64,000 nt of DNA from Planotetraspora kaengkrachanensis (GTDB lineage: Bacteria > Actinomycetota > Actinomycetes > Streptosporangiales > Streptosporangiaceae). A program made the translations under genes and the position numbers. The stretch spans positions 1 through 64,000 of the forward strand of contig NZ_BONV01000014.1 in NCBI RefSeq assembly GCF_016862895.1, given 5' to 3'. Below the pieces are notes generated by a model. It was given only the letters and a program-made list of their open reading frames with translations. It made no database searches and was not told the DNA's origin. The first letter of the stretch is position 1. Every line of letters starts with the position of its first letter. Below are positions 51,068 to 57,065 of this stretch, piece after piece.

Positions 51068-52591
51068 TTGCGTGCCTCCGTCACGTATTTGATCATTCGC
51101 GGCTCGGCGGCCTTCGCCGCCGGCTGCGCTTTCACCCTCAATCTGGTGTACCAGGCGCAGGTCGCCGGTCTCGGCCCTCTCCAGCTCGTCATCGTCGGCA
51201 CGACGCTGGAGGTCGTCTGCCTGGTCGCGCAGGTGCCGACCGGGGTGCTGGCCGATCTGCGCAGCCGCAGGCAGTCGGTCGTCGCCGGGTATCTGCTGTT
51301 CGGGACCGGCGTGCTGATCGAGGGGACGGTTCCCCGGTTCGGTGCGATCCTCGCGGCCAACGCCGTACTGGGCGTCGGCTGGACGTTCGTCGACGGCGCC
51401 CTGGACGCGTGGGTCGTCGACGAGGTGGATCCGGCACACCTGAACCGCCTTCTCGTGCGCGGCGCGCAACTCGGCCAGGCGGCGACCGTGGCCGGCATCG
51501 GGGCCTCGGTCTGGCTGGCCGGATTCGGGCTGAACGTCCCGCTCGTCGTGGGCGCGGCCGTCTGGCTGGTCCTCGGCGTCGTCCTCGCCGCCGCGATGCC
51601 CGAGCGAGGCTTCCGGCCGCGCACGCGGCAGGCGTGGCAGGGATCGCTGCGCTCGATGCGGGACCAGGCCGGTCGCGCGGCCGCCACGGCCCGCAGAAGC
51701 CGCCCGATGAGGTTCATGCTGGCCGCGGTGTTGCTGACGGCCTTCGCGAGCGAGGGCGTCGACCGGCTCGGGCAGGTCCACTTCGTCCAGACCTGGAGCA
51801 CTCCGGCGTACTGGTTCGGTCTCATGGCCGTCGCGGCGATGGCGGGGGCGGCCGCGCTCACCGAACTGGTCCGAAGGCTGACCGACCTGACCGACCCGGC
51901 ACGTACGGTTCGCGCCCTCGCCGTCCTGCAGACGGCGGGCGCGGTCGCGACGGCCGCGTTCGCGCTGACCGGCGCGTTCTGGGTCGCCGTCCTCGCGTGG
52001 GCCGGGGCGGGCATGGCCCGGTCGGCGGCCGAGCCGGCGCGCGCCGCATGGCTGGCCCGGCAGACGGAGCCGACGAGCCGCGCGACGGTCTACTCGCTTG
52101 TCGCGCAGGCGGATTCCGCGGGCGAGCTCATGGGAGGTCCGCCCGTCGGAGTGCTCGCACAACGCGTGTCGATCGGTGCCGCGCTCGCGGCGTCGGCGGC
52201 CGTGCTCGTCCTCGCGGTGCCGTTCCTCGCCGCCGCGGGGCGGCGGCTACCAGTCGCCGGTCCACTCCGTGACGACCTCGGCGCCGTCGAGACGGCAGCG
52301 GAGGCGGAACGGACCGCGGGCGACGCCGCCGCAGATGAAGCGGCCGAGAGAGTCGGCGCCGACGGCGACCCGATCCCCGGCTCCCGTTCCCGCGCCTCCG
52401 CCGGTCTCGCCGCCGGACCCGGGGAGCGTCTCGATCGTGATCTCGGCGGGGCGCGACGGGACGAGACGGCCGACGAACGTGGAGCCGGTGGCCCCGTGCA
52501 CGACCTCCACCTCGACGGTCGTCGCGCCCCATTCGTAGGCGAGCAGGCGCGTCCCGCTGCCCGTCCGGACGGGCAGCGGCCCGGCGAGTGA
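51068..52591 (+). CDS. MFS transporter with antisense-overlap tail
   Basis: 507 residues by the open frame, from a TTG at 51068 preceded by TTGGAG six bases away (TTG 51056 lacks a site). About 12 membrane helices fill residues 1-395, with the family's VPTGVLADLRSRRQSV loop. The final about 110 residues are Ala/Arg/Asp-rich and lie exactly antisense to the gene at 52247-52738, so the tail is probably a run-on rather than a domain. Cargo unknown; a drug exporter is likely. Confidence 0.78.
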   Translation: MRASVTYLIIRGSAAFAAGCAFTLNLVYQAQVAGLGPLQLVIVGTTLEVVCLVAQVPTGVLADLRSRRQSVVAGYLLFGTGVLIEGTVPRFGAILAANAVLGVGWTFVDGALDAWVVDEVDPAHLNRLLVRGAQLGQAATVAGIGASVWLAGFGLNVPLVVGAAVWLVLGVVLAAAMPERGFRPRTRQAWQGSLRSMRDQAGRAAATARRSRPMRFMLAAVLLTAFASEGVDRLGQVHFVQTWSTPAYWFGLMAVAAMAGAAALTELVRRLTDLTDPARTVRALAVLQTAGAVATAAFALTGAFWVAVLAWAGAGMARSAAEPARAAWLARQTEPTSRATVYSLVAQADSAGELMGGPPVGVLAQRVSIGAALAASAAVLVLAVPFLAAAGRRLPVAGPLRDDLGAVETAAEAERTAGDAAADEAAERVGADGDPIPGSRSRASAGLAAGPGERLDRDLGGARRDETADERGAGGPVHDLHLDGRRAPFVGEQARPAARPDGQRPGE

Positions 52592-52738
52592 GTCGTAGGT
52601 CAGCCGGGCCAGCTCGTCGTCCATCGCGCGCAGCGCATGGGCGGCCGCCGCGGCACGGATGAGAGAGGAGGGGAGGGAATCCATGAACTCGACGGCCCGC
52701 GACAGGGTGCCTGCGAGTCGGTCGTCATCGGGGTTCAT
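52247..52738 (-). CDS. small partner protein of the S8/CHAT locus
   Basis: 163 residues. A helical N-terminus (RAVEFMDSLPSSLIRAAAAAHALRAMDDEL) is followed by a beta-sandwich-like domain (TVEVEVVHGATGSTFVGRLV ... LGRFICGGVARGPFRLRC). I recall similar proteins beside CHAT, sigma-factor or S8 genes in actinomycetes, with no assigned function. It follows the S8 gene by 63 bp on the same strand. It may regulate or anchor the proteases (inference). Confidence 0.65.
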   Translation of the reverse strand: MNPDDDRLAGTLSRAVEFMDSLPSSLIRAAAAAHALRAMDDELARLTYDSLAGPLPVRTGSGTRLLAYEWGATTVEVEVVHGATGSTFVGRLVPSRPAEITIETLPGSGGETGGGAGTGAGDRVAVGADSLGRFICGGVARGPFRLRCRLDGAEVVTEWTGDW

Positions 52739-52801
52739 GGATCCCTCGCTCGTCTGCGGCGCGAGAGCCGCCGCGAAGAGGCTCGTGGACGGACGTGCCG
52801 A

Positions 52802-54325
52802 TCAGGTCGCGCGGGAGAAGGCGGACGTGGACGTCTCCTGCCAGCCGGGCGGCAGGATGACGGCGACCTTCTGGTCGAAGACCGTCCCCGCGCCCTGGTT
52901 CCGGGCGATGAGCGCGTCGGCCGCCTCCCGGGGGTCGCGCAGGCCGTTCTCCTGCATGTAGTTGACGATCGACGCGACCACGATGGGAGTGGAGAAGGAG
53001 GTGCCGCTCCACCTGGCCAGGCCGGTGAAGGAGGTGTGGTCGGCGTCGGACGACGGCTGCCCCTGGTCGAGGCTCAGCAGGCCCGTGTGGCGGGGGAACC
53101 GGCAGGTGCATTCGTACTGCCTGTACGGGTCGAGGTGCCGGCAGTTCGCGTACGTCGAATGCTGATAGACGTACTCGGGAGGGGTGGAGTCGATCGCGGT
53201 GAAGGCGTGGAGGAGCCGCTCACCCGGAGCGTAGACCCGGACCCACGGCCCGTGGCTGGTGAAACAGGCGCCGTCCGTTCCGTCGGAGCGCAGCGCCCCG
53301 ACGGAGACGACCGCGTTCGCGTACTTGGGCAGCGCCGCGTACGCGGCGGGCACGAACGGCTTGTCGTTCCCGTTGTTCCCGGCGGCGGCCACCAGCAGGG
53401 TGCGCCGCGCCATGAGCTGCTCCATGAACCCTTCGAGGCCCTTGAGTTCGTCGACGGCCGCCGTCGGGTCGTCGGAGGGGGTCAGCGTGCCGGCGGAGAG
53501 GCTGATGATGTCGGGCCAGTCGTCTCCGAGCACCTCCAGCAGCCGTTCGCCGAGGTGATGTTCCAGCAGGGCGCCCTTGCCGACCAGCCCGTTGTCGACC
53601 CTCACCGCGGCGTGGGGAGCCACCGCCTTGATGATGCTGGCGATGAACGTGCCGTGGCCCGCGTACAGGTCGAGGACGCCGTCGTCGCCCTCGAGCCTGT
53701 TGGTCTGCCCCTCCGGGTGGGTGACGTCCGCCAGCCAGGGGTAGGACGCGTAGCCGTCCACGAGTCCGGTGTCGACCACCAGGACACGCACCGGTCCGTC
53801 CTGGCCCGGAGGAGGAGCCATCGGGTTCCGCGGCGGGTTCAGGGCCCGCTCCGCGTCCGCCACCCTCTCCGGCAGCGTCAGCGCGACGAAGTTCTGCGGT
53901 GTGACTCCCACGGGGAGGGCCTGCGGGTCGGGCTCGTCGTTGGGACAGCAGTTGACGTTGGCGATGTGGACGACGTGGTTGCGCGTGGCCAGCGGCTGCC
54001 CGGTGCGGTTACGCGCCCTCCCCAGCGCTTCGAGCGCCGGGGCGACCCCCCAGTCGGAACTCACGTCCTCCATGGAGTCGTCCCCGACCTGGATCCGGTA
54101 GACGTCCGACCTGCGGCGCACGTCTCCGTCAGCCGGCCTGATCTGGTCCTCGCGGCCCTGGGACACCGATCGCAGACGTCCAATGACCTCGTCCAGATCG
54201 TAGGACCGGGCGATCACGTGTCCCTTCTCGTAGATGGACTCCCCGTCGCCCACGGCGAGCTGAACGCCCTCGGGCATCGAGGCCTGGATCTGGTCGAATT
54301 GCTCTTTGAACCTGTCCGCCGCCAT
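52802..54325 (-). CDS. cytoplasmic S8 (subtilisin-like) serine protease
   Basis: 507 residues from ATG 54325 (GAGGAG eight bases upstream). The triad is complete: Asp185 in VVDTG, His224 in GHGTFIAS, Ser443 in SGTSFSTP. There is no signal peptide or membrane segment, and the roughly 150-residue N-terminal extension lacks an obvious I9 prodomain, so it probably works inside the cell. A Cys-rich insert (NCRHLD...YECTC) precedes the Ser. Divergent from the CHAT gene, 127 bp away. Confidence 0.88.
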   Translation of the reverse strand: MAADRFKEQFDQIQASMPEGVQLAVGDGESIYEKGHVIARSYDLDEVIGRLRSVSQGREDQIRPADGDVRRRSDVYRIQVGDDSMEDVSSDWGVAPALEALGRARNRTGQPLATRNHVVHIANVNCCPNDEPDPQALPVGVTPQNFVALTLPERVADAERALNPPRNPMAPPPGQDGPVRVLVVDTGLVDGYASYPWLADVTHPEGQTNRLEGDDGVLDLYAGHGTFIASIIKAVAPHAAVRVDNGLVGKGALLEHHLGERLLEVLGDDWPDIISLSAGTLTPSDDPTAAVDELKGLEGFMEQLMARRTLLVAAAGNNGNDKPFVPAAYAALPKYANAVVSVGALRSDGTDGACFTSHGPWVRVYAPGERLLHAFTAIDSTPPEYVYQHSTYANCRHLDPYRQYECTCRFPRHTGLLSLDQGQPSSDADHTSFTGLARWSGTSFSTPIVVASIVNYMQENGLRDPREAADALIARNQGAGTVFDQKVAVILPPGWQETSTSAFSRAT

Positions 54326-54440
54326 GGGGCCGCTCCTCGCTGAAGCCTGATGTCTGGTCGTCATGAACGAGAGCCGCGGACCGGCCGTCTGATACATCCG
54401 CGATGCGCACGGAGGGTGGACGTGCCGGTCACTCCATGTC

Positions 54441-54446
54441 TAACAT
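54441..54446 (+). promoter_or_regulatory. possible -10 element of a leaderless CHAT transcript
   Basis: TAACAT ends seven bases before the GTG of the CHAT gene, and no Shine-Dalgarno sequence precedes that GTG. This spacing is typical of leaderless actinobacterial mRNAs that begin at the start codon. No clear -35 is seen. Confidence 0.45.
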
Positions 54447-54452
54447 CGAGCC

Positions 54453-57065
54453 GTGGTCGCAGGAAGATCATCGGGGCGACCGTCGGAACCGGATCCGCTG
54501 GACCTGCTGCCCCTGGTGTTCGCGCGACCGGGGGAGGCGCTCGAACGGGCCCGTGCGCTGCTCGAGACCGGCCCCGGGCCGTACGAGGCCTCCGTCGCGC
54601 ACCAGGTGATCGGCATATGGCAGCGCGACTTCGGCGATCTCACGGCCGGGCTCGGCCATCTGCGCCGCGCGCGGCATCTCGCGGCGAGGTCCGGTTCCGC
54701 CGACCGTGAGGCCGACGTGCTCGCCACCCTCGGCGCCGCATACGTCCACGCCGGCCGTACGAGACGGGGACTGAGCACCCTGGACGAGGGGGTGGCGCGC
54801 GGGACGGGGGTCACGCTCGCCCGCGTGCTGTTCCGCCGGTCGTACGCGTCATGGGTGCTCGGCCGCCACCGCGAGGCGCTGGAGGACCTGCGGCGCGCCA
54901 TCCCCATCCTGAGGCGGGCCGGCGACGTCATCTGGAGCGCCCGGGCGCTGACCCTGCGCGCCACCGTCAACCTGGCCGTGGGCGCCGCCGAGTGGGCCCA
55001 GGCCGACTTCGCCGCCGCCGAGCGCCTGTGGGACGCCACCGACCAGGAACACGACAAGGCCGTCGCCGTGGAGAACCGCGGGCTCGCGGCCTTCCGCACG
55101 GGCGACCTGCCCGCCGCGCTCGGCCACTTCGACGAGGCGGCGCGGCGCTACGCCGCACTGGGGACACCCGCGTTCGTCCTGGCGGGCTCCCGCTGCGGCG
55201 CCCTGCTCGCGGCCGGGCTCGCGCGGGAGGCGGCCCAGGAGGCCGACGCGGCGACGGAACTGCTCGACCGGCTGGGCGGTCAGACCACCCGGAGGGCCGA
55301 GCTCATGCTGGTCGCCGCGCGGGCGCTGAACGACTCAGGCGATCCCGAGGCCGCCGCGGTCAGGGCCGACGCCGCGGTGCGCTCGTTCTCCGCGCAGCGG
55401 CGCGAATGGTGGGAGGTTCACGCGCGGCTCGTGCGCGTCCAGGCCCGGCTCGCCGCCGGGCAGGCGTCGGAGCCGCTCCTGCGGGAGGCGGCCTCGGTCG
55501 CCGAGCGGCTCACCGCGCTCGGTTCGCCGGAGGCCGTACAAGGGTTCCTCCTCGCCGGCCGTACCGCCACCGCCCTCGGCCGCGGGGCCGACGCGGCCAG
55601 GCACCTCGCCGTCGCCGCGAAGGGGAGGTGGCGGGGACCGGCGTTCGCGCGGGTGGACGGCTGGGTCGCCCAGGCGCTGCTGGCCGCCGCGCCCGGTCGG
55701 AGCAGAGGGCTGCTCGACGCCTGCAGACGAGGGCTCGAACTGCTCGACGAGCACCGCATGACGCTCGGAGCGCCGGAGCTGCGGGCCCGCGTCACCGCGC
55801 GCGGAGCCGAGCTGTCCACACTCGCGCAACGGGCGACCGCGGACGACCCGCGGCGGCTTCTCGTCTGGAGCGAGCGCAGGCGCGCCGCCGCGCTCGCCGT
55901 CCCGCCCGCCCGCCCGCCGGACGACCCAGAACTGCAGCGAGACCTGACCGCCTTCCGCGAGATCTCCAGCCGGGTGGAGGCCGCCAGGTCGGACGGCAGG
56001 CCCGTGCCGTGGTTGCGCAGGGAGCAGGAGCGCCTGGAGCGGGACATCCGCGCGCGCAGCCTCCGGATGCGGAGCGAGGGAACCGCTCCCGACCACCGGA
56101 TGGACGTCCGGGCGCTGCTCGGCGAACTCGGCGAGCAACGGCTCGTCGAGATCGTCGCGCTCGACGGGAGGCTGCACGTCCTGCTCTGCGGGCACGGCAG
56201 GATCCGCGGGTTCCGGGCGGGCGGGGTCGCCGACGCGGAGGCCGAGGCCGAGCACGTGCGCGCGGCCCTGCGCAGGGTCGCCTACGGGCGGGCCGGCCGG
56301 ATCGCGCCGCTGAAGGAGGCCGGGCTGCGGCTCCAGGAGATCCTGCTCGGCCCCGCCGTACGGCATCTGGGGGAGGGCCCGGTCGTCATCGTGCCGCCCG
56401 GGCCGCTTCACGGCGTGCCCTGGGCGCTGCTGCCCGCCCTGCGGGACCGCGTGCTGAGCGTGTCCCCGTCCGCGGGCACGTGGCTGCGCGCCCGCGGGAT
56501 CGAGCCGCGCGGCGACCGGGTGGTCCTCGTCCGCGGGCCCGGGCTCGCGACCGGCGGCGCCGAGGTGCCGGTCCTGGCGGACCTGTACGGCGAAGTGACC
56601 GTGCTGGAGAACGGAGGGGCCGGCGGCGCCGCCGTGCTGAAGGAGATCGACGGCTGTCACCTCGCCCACATCGCGGCACACGGGACCTTCCGCGCCGACA
56701 GCCCGATGTTCTCCTCGTTGCAGATGGACGACGGCCCGCTGATCGTGCACGATCTCGAACGGCTCAGGAGCGCTCCCTACCGGATCATCCTGTCGAGTTG
56801 CGACTCGGGCACGCTCGAACCGGTGGGGGCGGACGAGCTGCTCGGCCTCGCGGCGGCGCTGCTTCCGCTCGGCACCGCGGGAATCGTGGCCAGCTCCGTA
56901 CCCGTGCACGACGAGGCCGTCGTCCCGCTCATGGTGGCCCTGCACCAGGCGCTGAAGAGCGGGCACGGGCTCGCCGAGGCCCTTCGTGACGCACGGGCGG
57001 CGCTGCCTTCGTCCGCGCTCCACCAGGCCACCGGGTGGTCCTTCTCCGCCATCGGCGCCGCCTGA
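54453..57065 (+). CDS. TPR-CHAT (caspase-like) protein
   Basis: 870 residues. Residues 30-450 are TPR-like repeats (ATLGAAYVHAGRTRRGLSTL, ENRGLAAFRTGDLPAALGHF). The C-terminal about 280 residues form a CHAT domain: VIVPPGPLHGVPWALLP, catalytic His743 in HIAAHGTF and Cys783 in LSSCDSG, then GLAAALLPLGTAGIVAS. Such proteins are predicted or known proteases activated by partner sensing. The likely cytoplasmic location and the divergent S8 protease gene suggest a proteolytic response system. GTG start at 54453, possibly leaderless. Confidence 0.9.
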   Translation: MVAGRSSGRPSEPDPLDLLPLVFARPGEALERARALLETGPGPYEASVAHQVIGIWQRDFGDLTAGLGHLRRARHLAARSGSADREADVLATLGAAYVHAGRTRRGLSTLDEGVARGTGVTLARVLFRRSYASWVLGRHREALEDLRRAIPILRRAGDVIWSARALTLRATVNLAVGAAEWAQADFAAAERLWDATDQEHDKAVAVENRGLAAFRTGDLPAALGHFDEAARRYAALGTPAFVLAGSRCGALLAAGLAREAAQEADAATELLDRLGGQTTRRAELMLVAARALNDSGDPEAAAVRADAAVRSFSAQRREWWEVHARLVRVQARLAAGQASEPLLREAASVAERLTALGSPEAVQGFLLAGRTATALGRGADAARHLAVAAKGRWRGPAFARVDGWVAQALLAAAPGRSRGLLDACRRGLELLDEHRMTLGAPELRARVTARGAELSTLAQRATADDPRRLLVWSERRRAAALAVPPARPPDDPELQRDLTAFREISSRVEAARSDGRPVPWLRREQERLERDIRARSLRMRSEGTAPDHRMDVRALLGELGEQRLVEIVALDGRLHVLLCGHGRIRGFRAGGVADAEAEAEHVRAALRRVAYGRAGRIAPLKEAGLRLQEILLGPAVRHLGEGPVVIVPPGPLHGVPWALLPALRDRVLSVSPSAGTWLRARGIEPRGDRVVLVRGPGLATGGAEVPVLADLYGEVTVLENGGAGGAAVLKEIDGCHLAHIAAHGTFRADSPMFSSLQMDDGPLIVHDLERLRSAPYRIILSSCDSGTLEPVGADELLGLAAALLPLGTAGIVASSVPVHDEAVVPLMVALHQALKSGHGLAEALRDARAALPSSALHQATGWSFSAIGAA

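Follow-up and report, generated by a model that had tools for sequence, protein, structure and literature searches.

Which process is served by a locus that encodes two proteases of different families beside a small protein? We examined this question in a 64,000-nt stretch of Planotetraspora kaengkrachanensis DNA (contig NZ_BONV01000014.1, positions 1 to 64,000; the window), in which genes for an S8 subtilase and a small protein are divergent from a gene for a TPR-CHAT protein. An earlier note on this DNA had proposed a sense-and-cleave system, possibly a defence or cell-death module. Gene order and phylogeny showed that the trio makes up the protease side of an ECF54-like signalling module centred on a sigma factor (ECF, extracytoplasmic function), the ECF54 label resting on gene context. 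The full explanation that we favour, with slightly better than even chances in our judgement, is that this module is a protease-to-sigma switch whose halves are split yet connected in Planotetraspora.

The trio belongs to an ECF54-like module

The small gene (52247..52738, minus strand; 163 residues) lies 63 bp downstream of the S8 gene (52802..54325, minus strand; 507 residues, ATG at 54325), and the TPR-CHAT gene (54453..57065, plus strand; 870 residues) is divergent from both, as the earlier note had described. The subtilase matched Pfam Peptidase_S8 (1.2e-15), and a signal peptide was not apparent by eye. An alternative 531-residue open reading frame (ORF), in which the catalytic Asp185, His224 and Ser443 are numbered 209, 248 and 467, would begin within the ECF-type promoter described below, where the in-frame upstream codons lie. 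For the TPR-CHAT assignment, the CHAT part was upheld by a Pfam match (2.1e-27), and TPR matches were present, each under the Pfam cut-off. The catalytic residues were as previously read. In alignments that count four genomes twice, the S8 triad was invariant in all 121 copies covering it (123 in the set) and the oxyanion Asn was present in 120 of the 121; His743 and Cys783 of the CHAT protein were invariant in 121 of 121 covering copies (122 in the set). The subtilase thus carries the triad and oxyanion Asn of an S8 protease, and its divergent neighbour carries a CHAT domain with a His/Cys dyad placed after the TPRs, as in CHAT proteases.

With the S8 protein as query, 41 of 150 family genomes gave a match (E<=1e-20). 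Regions were retrieved around 40 of the 47 S8 places outside the window, the other seven being left out. A TPR-CHAT homologue was present in 39 of these regions, and 32 contained S8, an ECF sigma factor, a small homologue and CHAT together; the eight without the full set were those of three congeners, L053 (a short contig), L064, L066, L069 and L074. The earlier note had held that rare co-occurrence of the homologues would speak against its trio; the outcome favoured linkage, and the trio behaved as one conserved unit. The 63-bp gap between the S8 and small genes (52739..52801, minus strand) is, in most relatives examined, the place of a gene for an ECF sigma factor of about 190–210 residues, which matched Pfam sigma-70 region 2.

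We also scanned named genomes with a CHAT profile and took the best 80 loci, mostly from Streptomyces, although more exist. Small-sigma-S8 was divergent from CHAT in 74 of the best 80, and S8-CHAT stood alone in five (apparently contig ends). The single case of small-S8-CHAT without sigma was Planotetraspora phitsanulokensis; its CHAT protein, 94% identical to that of the window, was the nearest named relative among these loci. The usual module comprises S8, ECF sigma, small protein and TPR-CHAT; most named loci also carry a LuxR-type ATPase regulator in convergent orientation to CHAT, present in 64 of the 75 named loci long enough to contain it.

The distribution of the module across the phylum is patchy, because a small-protein search detected the small protein in just 22 of 296 phylum genomes. 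Twenty small-protein regions were inspected: 11 had all four genes and L216 was without S8; four (L211, L213, L215 and L224) had only sigma and small, L211 being uninformative because it starts at a contig end; and four from distant Actinomycetota (L212, L214, L220 and L225) had only the small gene. Three neighbours scanned around sigma-small or small-only loci without CHAT revealed no recurrent partner. The window genome itself holds two more, distant S8-sigma-small-CHAT cassettes (G000:C9, L036; G000:C15, L037) and a fourth CHAT protein on G000:C64 (L035), with no other cassette genes detected in 14 kb.

This context is already in print in outline. In its section on group ECF54, a 2022 review (PMC8999054) names carboxypeptidase, subtilase and CHAT domains as conserved neighbours of these sigma factors and proposes proteolytic regulation. 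The family examined here has the same context, a sigma factor with CHAT, subtilase and carboxypeptidase-labelled neighbours, the sigma gene of the window genome lying about 34 kb from S8. The claim that no described system has this exact trio was therefore not borne out, and the possibility that the proteases have already known partners came true in outline, ECF54 being the missing partner. To the published neighbourhood we add the LuxR-type ATPase regulator as a fifth gene, an exact promoter, a second target and a cassette split within a genus. Searches of the open-access literature found neither the promoter, the fifth gene, the nature of the small protein, the split cassette nor the swapped protease described below.

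A shared putative promoter and a divided cassette

Of 106 divergent loci, 93 carry an exact TGTATCA upstream of S8; CTC follows it at a constant spacing, each of its letters being present in about 95%. The corresponding element of the window, TGTATCA-N16-CTC at 54371..54396 (minus strand), is the putative ECF-type promoter of the S8-small operon, assigned by motif conservation. On both strands of the 75 named loci, 131 exact copies were found: 65 on the S8 strand, close upstream of CHAT, 63 on the regulator strand to the right of CHAT and three elsewhere. The motif was present at 63 of the 64 convergent regulators, and in 60 of the 63 the motif began 34 nt ahead of the regulator start codon. 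Random 280-nt segments of the same loci, with the true sites left unmasked, contained it in 30 of 3000. Within Planotetraspora, it precedes both S8 and a distant regulator gene in each of the four locus-bearing genomes, the window genome included, and neither site exists in the fifth congener, G077. From the place and form of TGTATCA-N16-CTC, we infer that it is the target of the module's sigma factor, which would most likely use it to transcribe both the S8-sigma-small operon and the regulator gene. The CHAT gene appears to have its own housekeeping-type promoter; a candidate, TGGACG-N18-TAACAT, was read by eye at 54417..54446 (plus strand), and its position 6 nt ahead of the GTG suggests a leaderless mRNA. 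An Rfam search at the gathering cut-off gave no match.

In 15 genomes, 35 motif sites were recorded, 11 before S8, eight before the LuxR-type regulator, two before another ATPase gene and 14 elsewhere. In L255 and L256 (G087 and G112, of the same genus), the additional ATPase-type gene flanks the S8-sigma-small operon at its far end. L243, L247 and L260 (G172, G342 and G277), all from Streptomyces-like genomes, share a third site distant from the cassette; in each it is flanked by the ends of the same two genes and has no clear target. A wider genome-wide regulon cannot be claimed from motif counts, as the raw counts are no higher than those of the reversed motif.

The ECF sigma gene is missing between S8 and small in the window and in all three congeners with the locus, and the window locus is also without the LuxR-type regulator. 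Simple loss of sigma from the genus was ruled out: the window genome, like three congeners, has its closest sigma relative on the same contig, 29–34 kb from S8. In the window genome it lies at C14:88070-88663, adjoining a second small gene. A LuxR-type regulator (P0004), with weak AAA matches and a GerE match of 2.9e-09, adjoins this distant sigma gene. The distant sigma and small genes grouped in trees with those of Microbispora-type L063/L132 (support 100/99 for sigma and 99/98 for small). By pairwise identity, as distinct from a tree, the distant regulator was 70–72% identical to the regulator beside the L063 cassette, compared with 57% for G058 and 53% for G051. Taking CHAT and S8 out of the L063 gene order leaves regulator, sigma and small arranged and oriented as they are in Planotetraspora. 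The window CHAT gene paired with that of P. phitsanulokensis (100/99), and the window small gene fell in a clade of small genes from L043, L040, L165 and L182. G077 contained no S8 homologue (E<=1e-30), no regulator match (E<=1e-40) and only distant sigma relatives.

The simplest history appears to be two cassettes with complementary losses, in which the window locus would have retained CHAT, S8 and small, and the distant, Microbispora-like locus would have retained regulator, sigma and small. Because both halves keep the promoter, they probably still form one circuit. We also observed another ECF-like ORF in opposite orientation (L099:6648-7502; G000:C14, about 88.6–89.5 kb) within the regulator-sigma gap, which measures 1.9 kb in the window genome, about 1.7 kb in G125 and less than 0.2 kb in G022 and G104.

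The small protein, the proteases and a probable allele swap

The window small protein on its own had no Pfam match, and a PDB sequence search with it returned one chance-level match only. Its AlphaFold model (predicted local distance difference test, pLDDT, 81; predicted template modelling score, pTM, 0.58) consists of an N-terminal helical hairpin and a C-terminal nine-strand beta-sandwich. Among 39 members of its family searched at E<=0.1, ten matched CarboxypepD_reg (best 1.8e-05; the one score shown with a cut-off, 21.4 bits, falls below the cut-off), and the Pfam matches included no enzyme domain and no anti-sigma family. This regulatory-like domain probably accounts for the 'carboxypeptidase' label in the review's ECF54 neighbourhood; the protein so labelled would then be the small protein described here, without an enzyme domain. 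We propose, from its context, that the small protein is the cognate regulator or inhibitor of the ECF sigma factor.

The S8 model (pLDDT 78, pTM 0.86) aligned over 460–500 columns with unprocessed pro-subtilisins, so a pro-domain probably occupies the first 120 or so residues. Five cysteines of the 507-residue protein (C127, C354, C395, C406 and C408) are conserved in 85–100% of the aligned copies, and three of them lie in the stretch ahead of the catalytic Ser; a metal or redox site is possible. We compared tree distances across 49 loci, a measure that also mirrors shared history. Partial correlation coefficients (r) were 0.66–0.75 for S8-CHAT, 0.58–0.64 for sigma-small and 0.23–0.24 for S8-small. 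Because S8 and CHAT distances correlate, the earlier idea that one protease may act on the other is reasonable.

Comparison of the window with P. phitsanulokensis (L044) revealed an unusual history of the S8 gene. DNA identity was about 90% in both flanks and fell to about 69%, or became unalignable, from 52.75 to 54.29 kb (52750..54294), which is nearly the S8 gene. At the protein level, the window S8 was 48–49% identical to its congeners, compared with 91–94% for CHAT and 73–81% for small, and the S8 proteins of the three congeners were 89–97% identical to one another. Synonymous divergence (dS) between the window and the congeners was 0.69–0.76 for S8 and 0.19–0.30 for CHAT. Positive selection on S8 was ruled out as the only cause, since synonymous divergence is raised as well; for the same reason the window S8 gene was probably exchanged for a divergent allele, rather than being just fast-evolving. 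In the S8 tree, the window sequence and its congeners share an 8-row clade (98/98) without grouping together in it, and no donor was found.

The proposed switch and its alternatives

We suggest that the TPR-CHAT protein, produced constantly, would sense a cytoplasmic signal. CHAT and/or the pro-domain-bearing S8, as a protease pair, would then cut and remove the small protein, which would otherwise restrain sigma as its cognate inhibitor. Once freed, sigma would act on both promoters and boost S8, sigma itself, small and the regulator. The analogy is with Craspase, for which the relevant part of PMC10028731 describes Csx29, a TPR-CHAT protein, cleaving Csx30, an inhibitor of an ECF sigma factor. 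The Craspase/CASP set (Cas7-11, Csx29, Csx30, Csx31 and CASP-sigma) likewise encodes a TPR-CHAT protease with an ECF sigma and its inhibitor, the role here proposed for small; it differs in that our module has an S8 protease and in that cleavage of small is a proposal. PDB sequence matches of the small protein included no Csx30-like chain. The CHAT profile matched, over the catalytic part and at E ~0.02, PDB chains named 'CHAT domain protein', which we take to be Csx29. EACC2/caspase systems also combine a caspase-like protease, a TPR protein and an ECF sigma in one predicted system (eLife 70394, PMC8195603), but their constant domains are EACC2, TRADD-N and DUF1822, and S8 is not mentioned in the section that describes them.

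Several observations weigh against the switch. Interaction, cleavage and expression in it are all putative, and context is the sole ground for calling small an inhibitor: it has no Pfam anti-sigma match, and a fold search gave no PDB match at E<=0.001. The template modelling scores of S8 against pro-subtilisins were just 0.36–0.45 by query length, and an S8 swap unaccompanied by a change in CHAT speaks against S8 and CHAT meeting at a very strict interface. L066 and L074 are without sigma, L074 retaining S8-CHAT with no detectable sigma-small, and the four small-only loci have no recognisable sigma. Genome-wide raw motif counts did not exceed those of the reversed control (12 versus 16 in five genomes, 23 versus 19 in ten), and G342, one of eight cassette genomes, has no exact S8-promoter match; it is thus conservation and position that back the promoter. 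The one published proposal that our searches found for ECF54 is moreover the opposite. According to that section of PMC8999054, there is no anti-sigma factor and the proteases destroy sigma, keeping it off; small would be an adaptor or chaperone, and a signal would block proteolysis so that sigma accumulates. An S8 operon under the putative sigma promoter would give negative feedback in such a scheme, and CHAT and sigma distances correlate too (partial r 0.53–0.60), as strongly as sigma and small, so that the proteins do not fall neatly into two pairs. The review counts a 'carboxypeptidase', yet small is a regulatory-like beta-sandwich in which no enzyme domain was found, and three loci (L213, L215 and L224) have sigma-small pairs without detectable S8 or CHAT, as expected for a sigma with its own regulator. 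We rank this degradation scheme second to release from an inhibitor and consider it unlikely, if well short of negligible.

In a defence or cell-death module, CHAT would activate the S8 zymogen to kill or arrest the infected cell, transcription control being secondary. Both proteases have intact catalytic residues, S8 has a probable pro-domain, its gene exchange is a pattern known in conflict systems too, and the spread of S8 in the family and of small in the phylum is patchy. Among 33 S8 family members, 32 matched the generic 'subtilase' model of PADLOC and 15 its IetS model (best 1.7e-07). In contrast, the window S8 reached just E 0.08 with the IetS model and had no match at E<=0.001 in that scan, and none of the three window proteins had a significant PADLOC match. 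IetA is the partner of the IetS subtilase in the Iet defence system; an IetA-like partner was not recognised at the locus, where no search aimed at IetA was made. The conserved sigma factor and LuxR-type regulator, with their two shared, dedicated promoters, point to a transcriptional output instead. The defence output put forward in the earlier note was unsupported by PADLOC scans of the trio and the S8 family, and we regard it as improbable. Still less credible, and in our estimate very improbable, is that the Planotetraspora trio is a decaying remnant with no regulated function. In favour of that view, the locus has lost its sigma gene, small is evolving more quickly than CHAT and G077 has no S8; however, ratios of nonsynonymous to synonymous divergence (dN/dS) between the window and its congeners were 0.33–0.39 for small and 0.16–0.17 for CHAT, active-site residues are intact, and the promoter is exact in every Planotetraspora genome with the locus.

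The protease-to-sigma switch thus remains our preferred reading. A broader claim, which we hold tentatively and at somewhat less than even chances, is that many actinomycetes may possess, outside CRISPR, a counterpart of the Craspase output: a TPR-CHAT/S8 cascade would free an ECF sigma from a beta-sandwich inhibitor and fire a two-promoter regulon, and in Planotetraspora the circuit would be divided between two complementary loci that differ in ancestry but are still linked by one promoter sequence. ECF54-like modules are present in many Streptomyces and related genera, and the section of PMC8999054 devoted to them lists them merely as predicted. A putative promoter, a second target gene and a candidate inhibitor can now be added to that prediction, and the split cassette and swapped protease offer a natural experiment. 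The idea that TPR-CHAT proteases act as cytoplasmic sigma switches outside CRISPR becomes directly testable; if it is true, Craspase would exemplify a wider bacterial signalling device.

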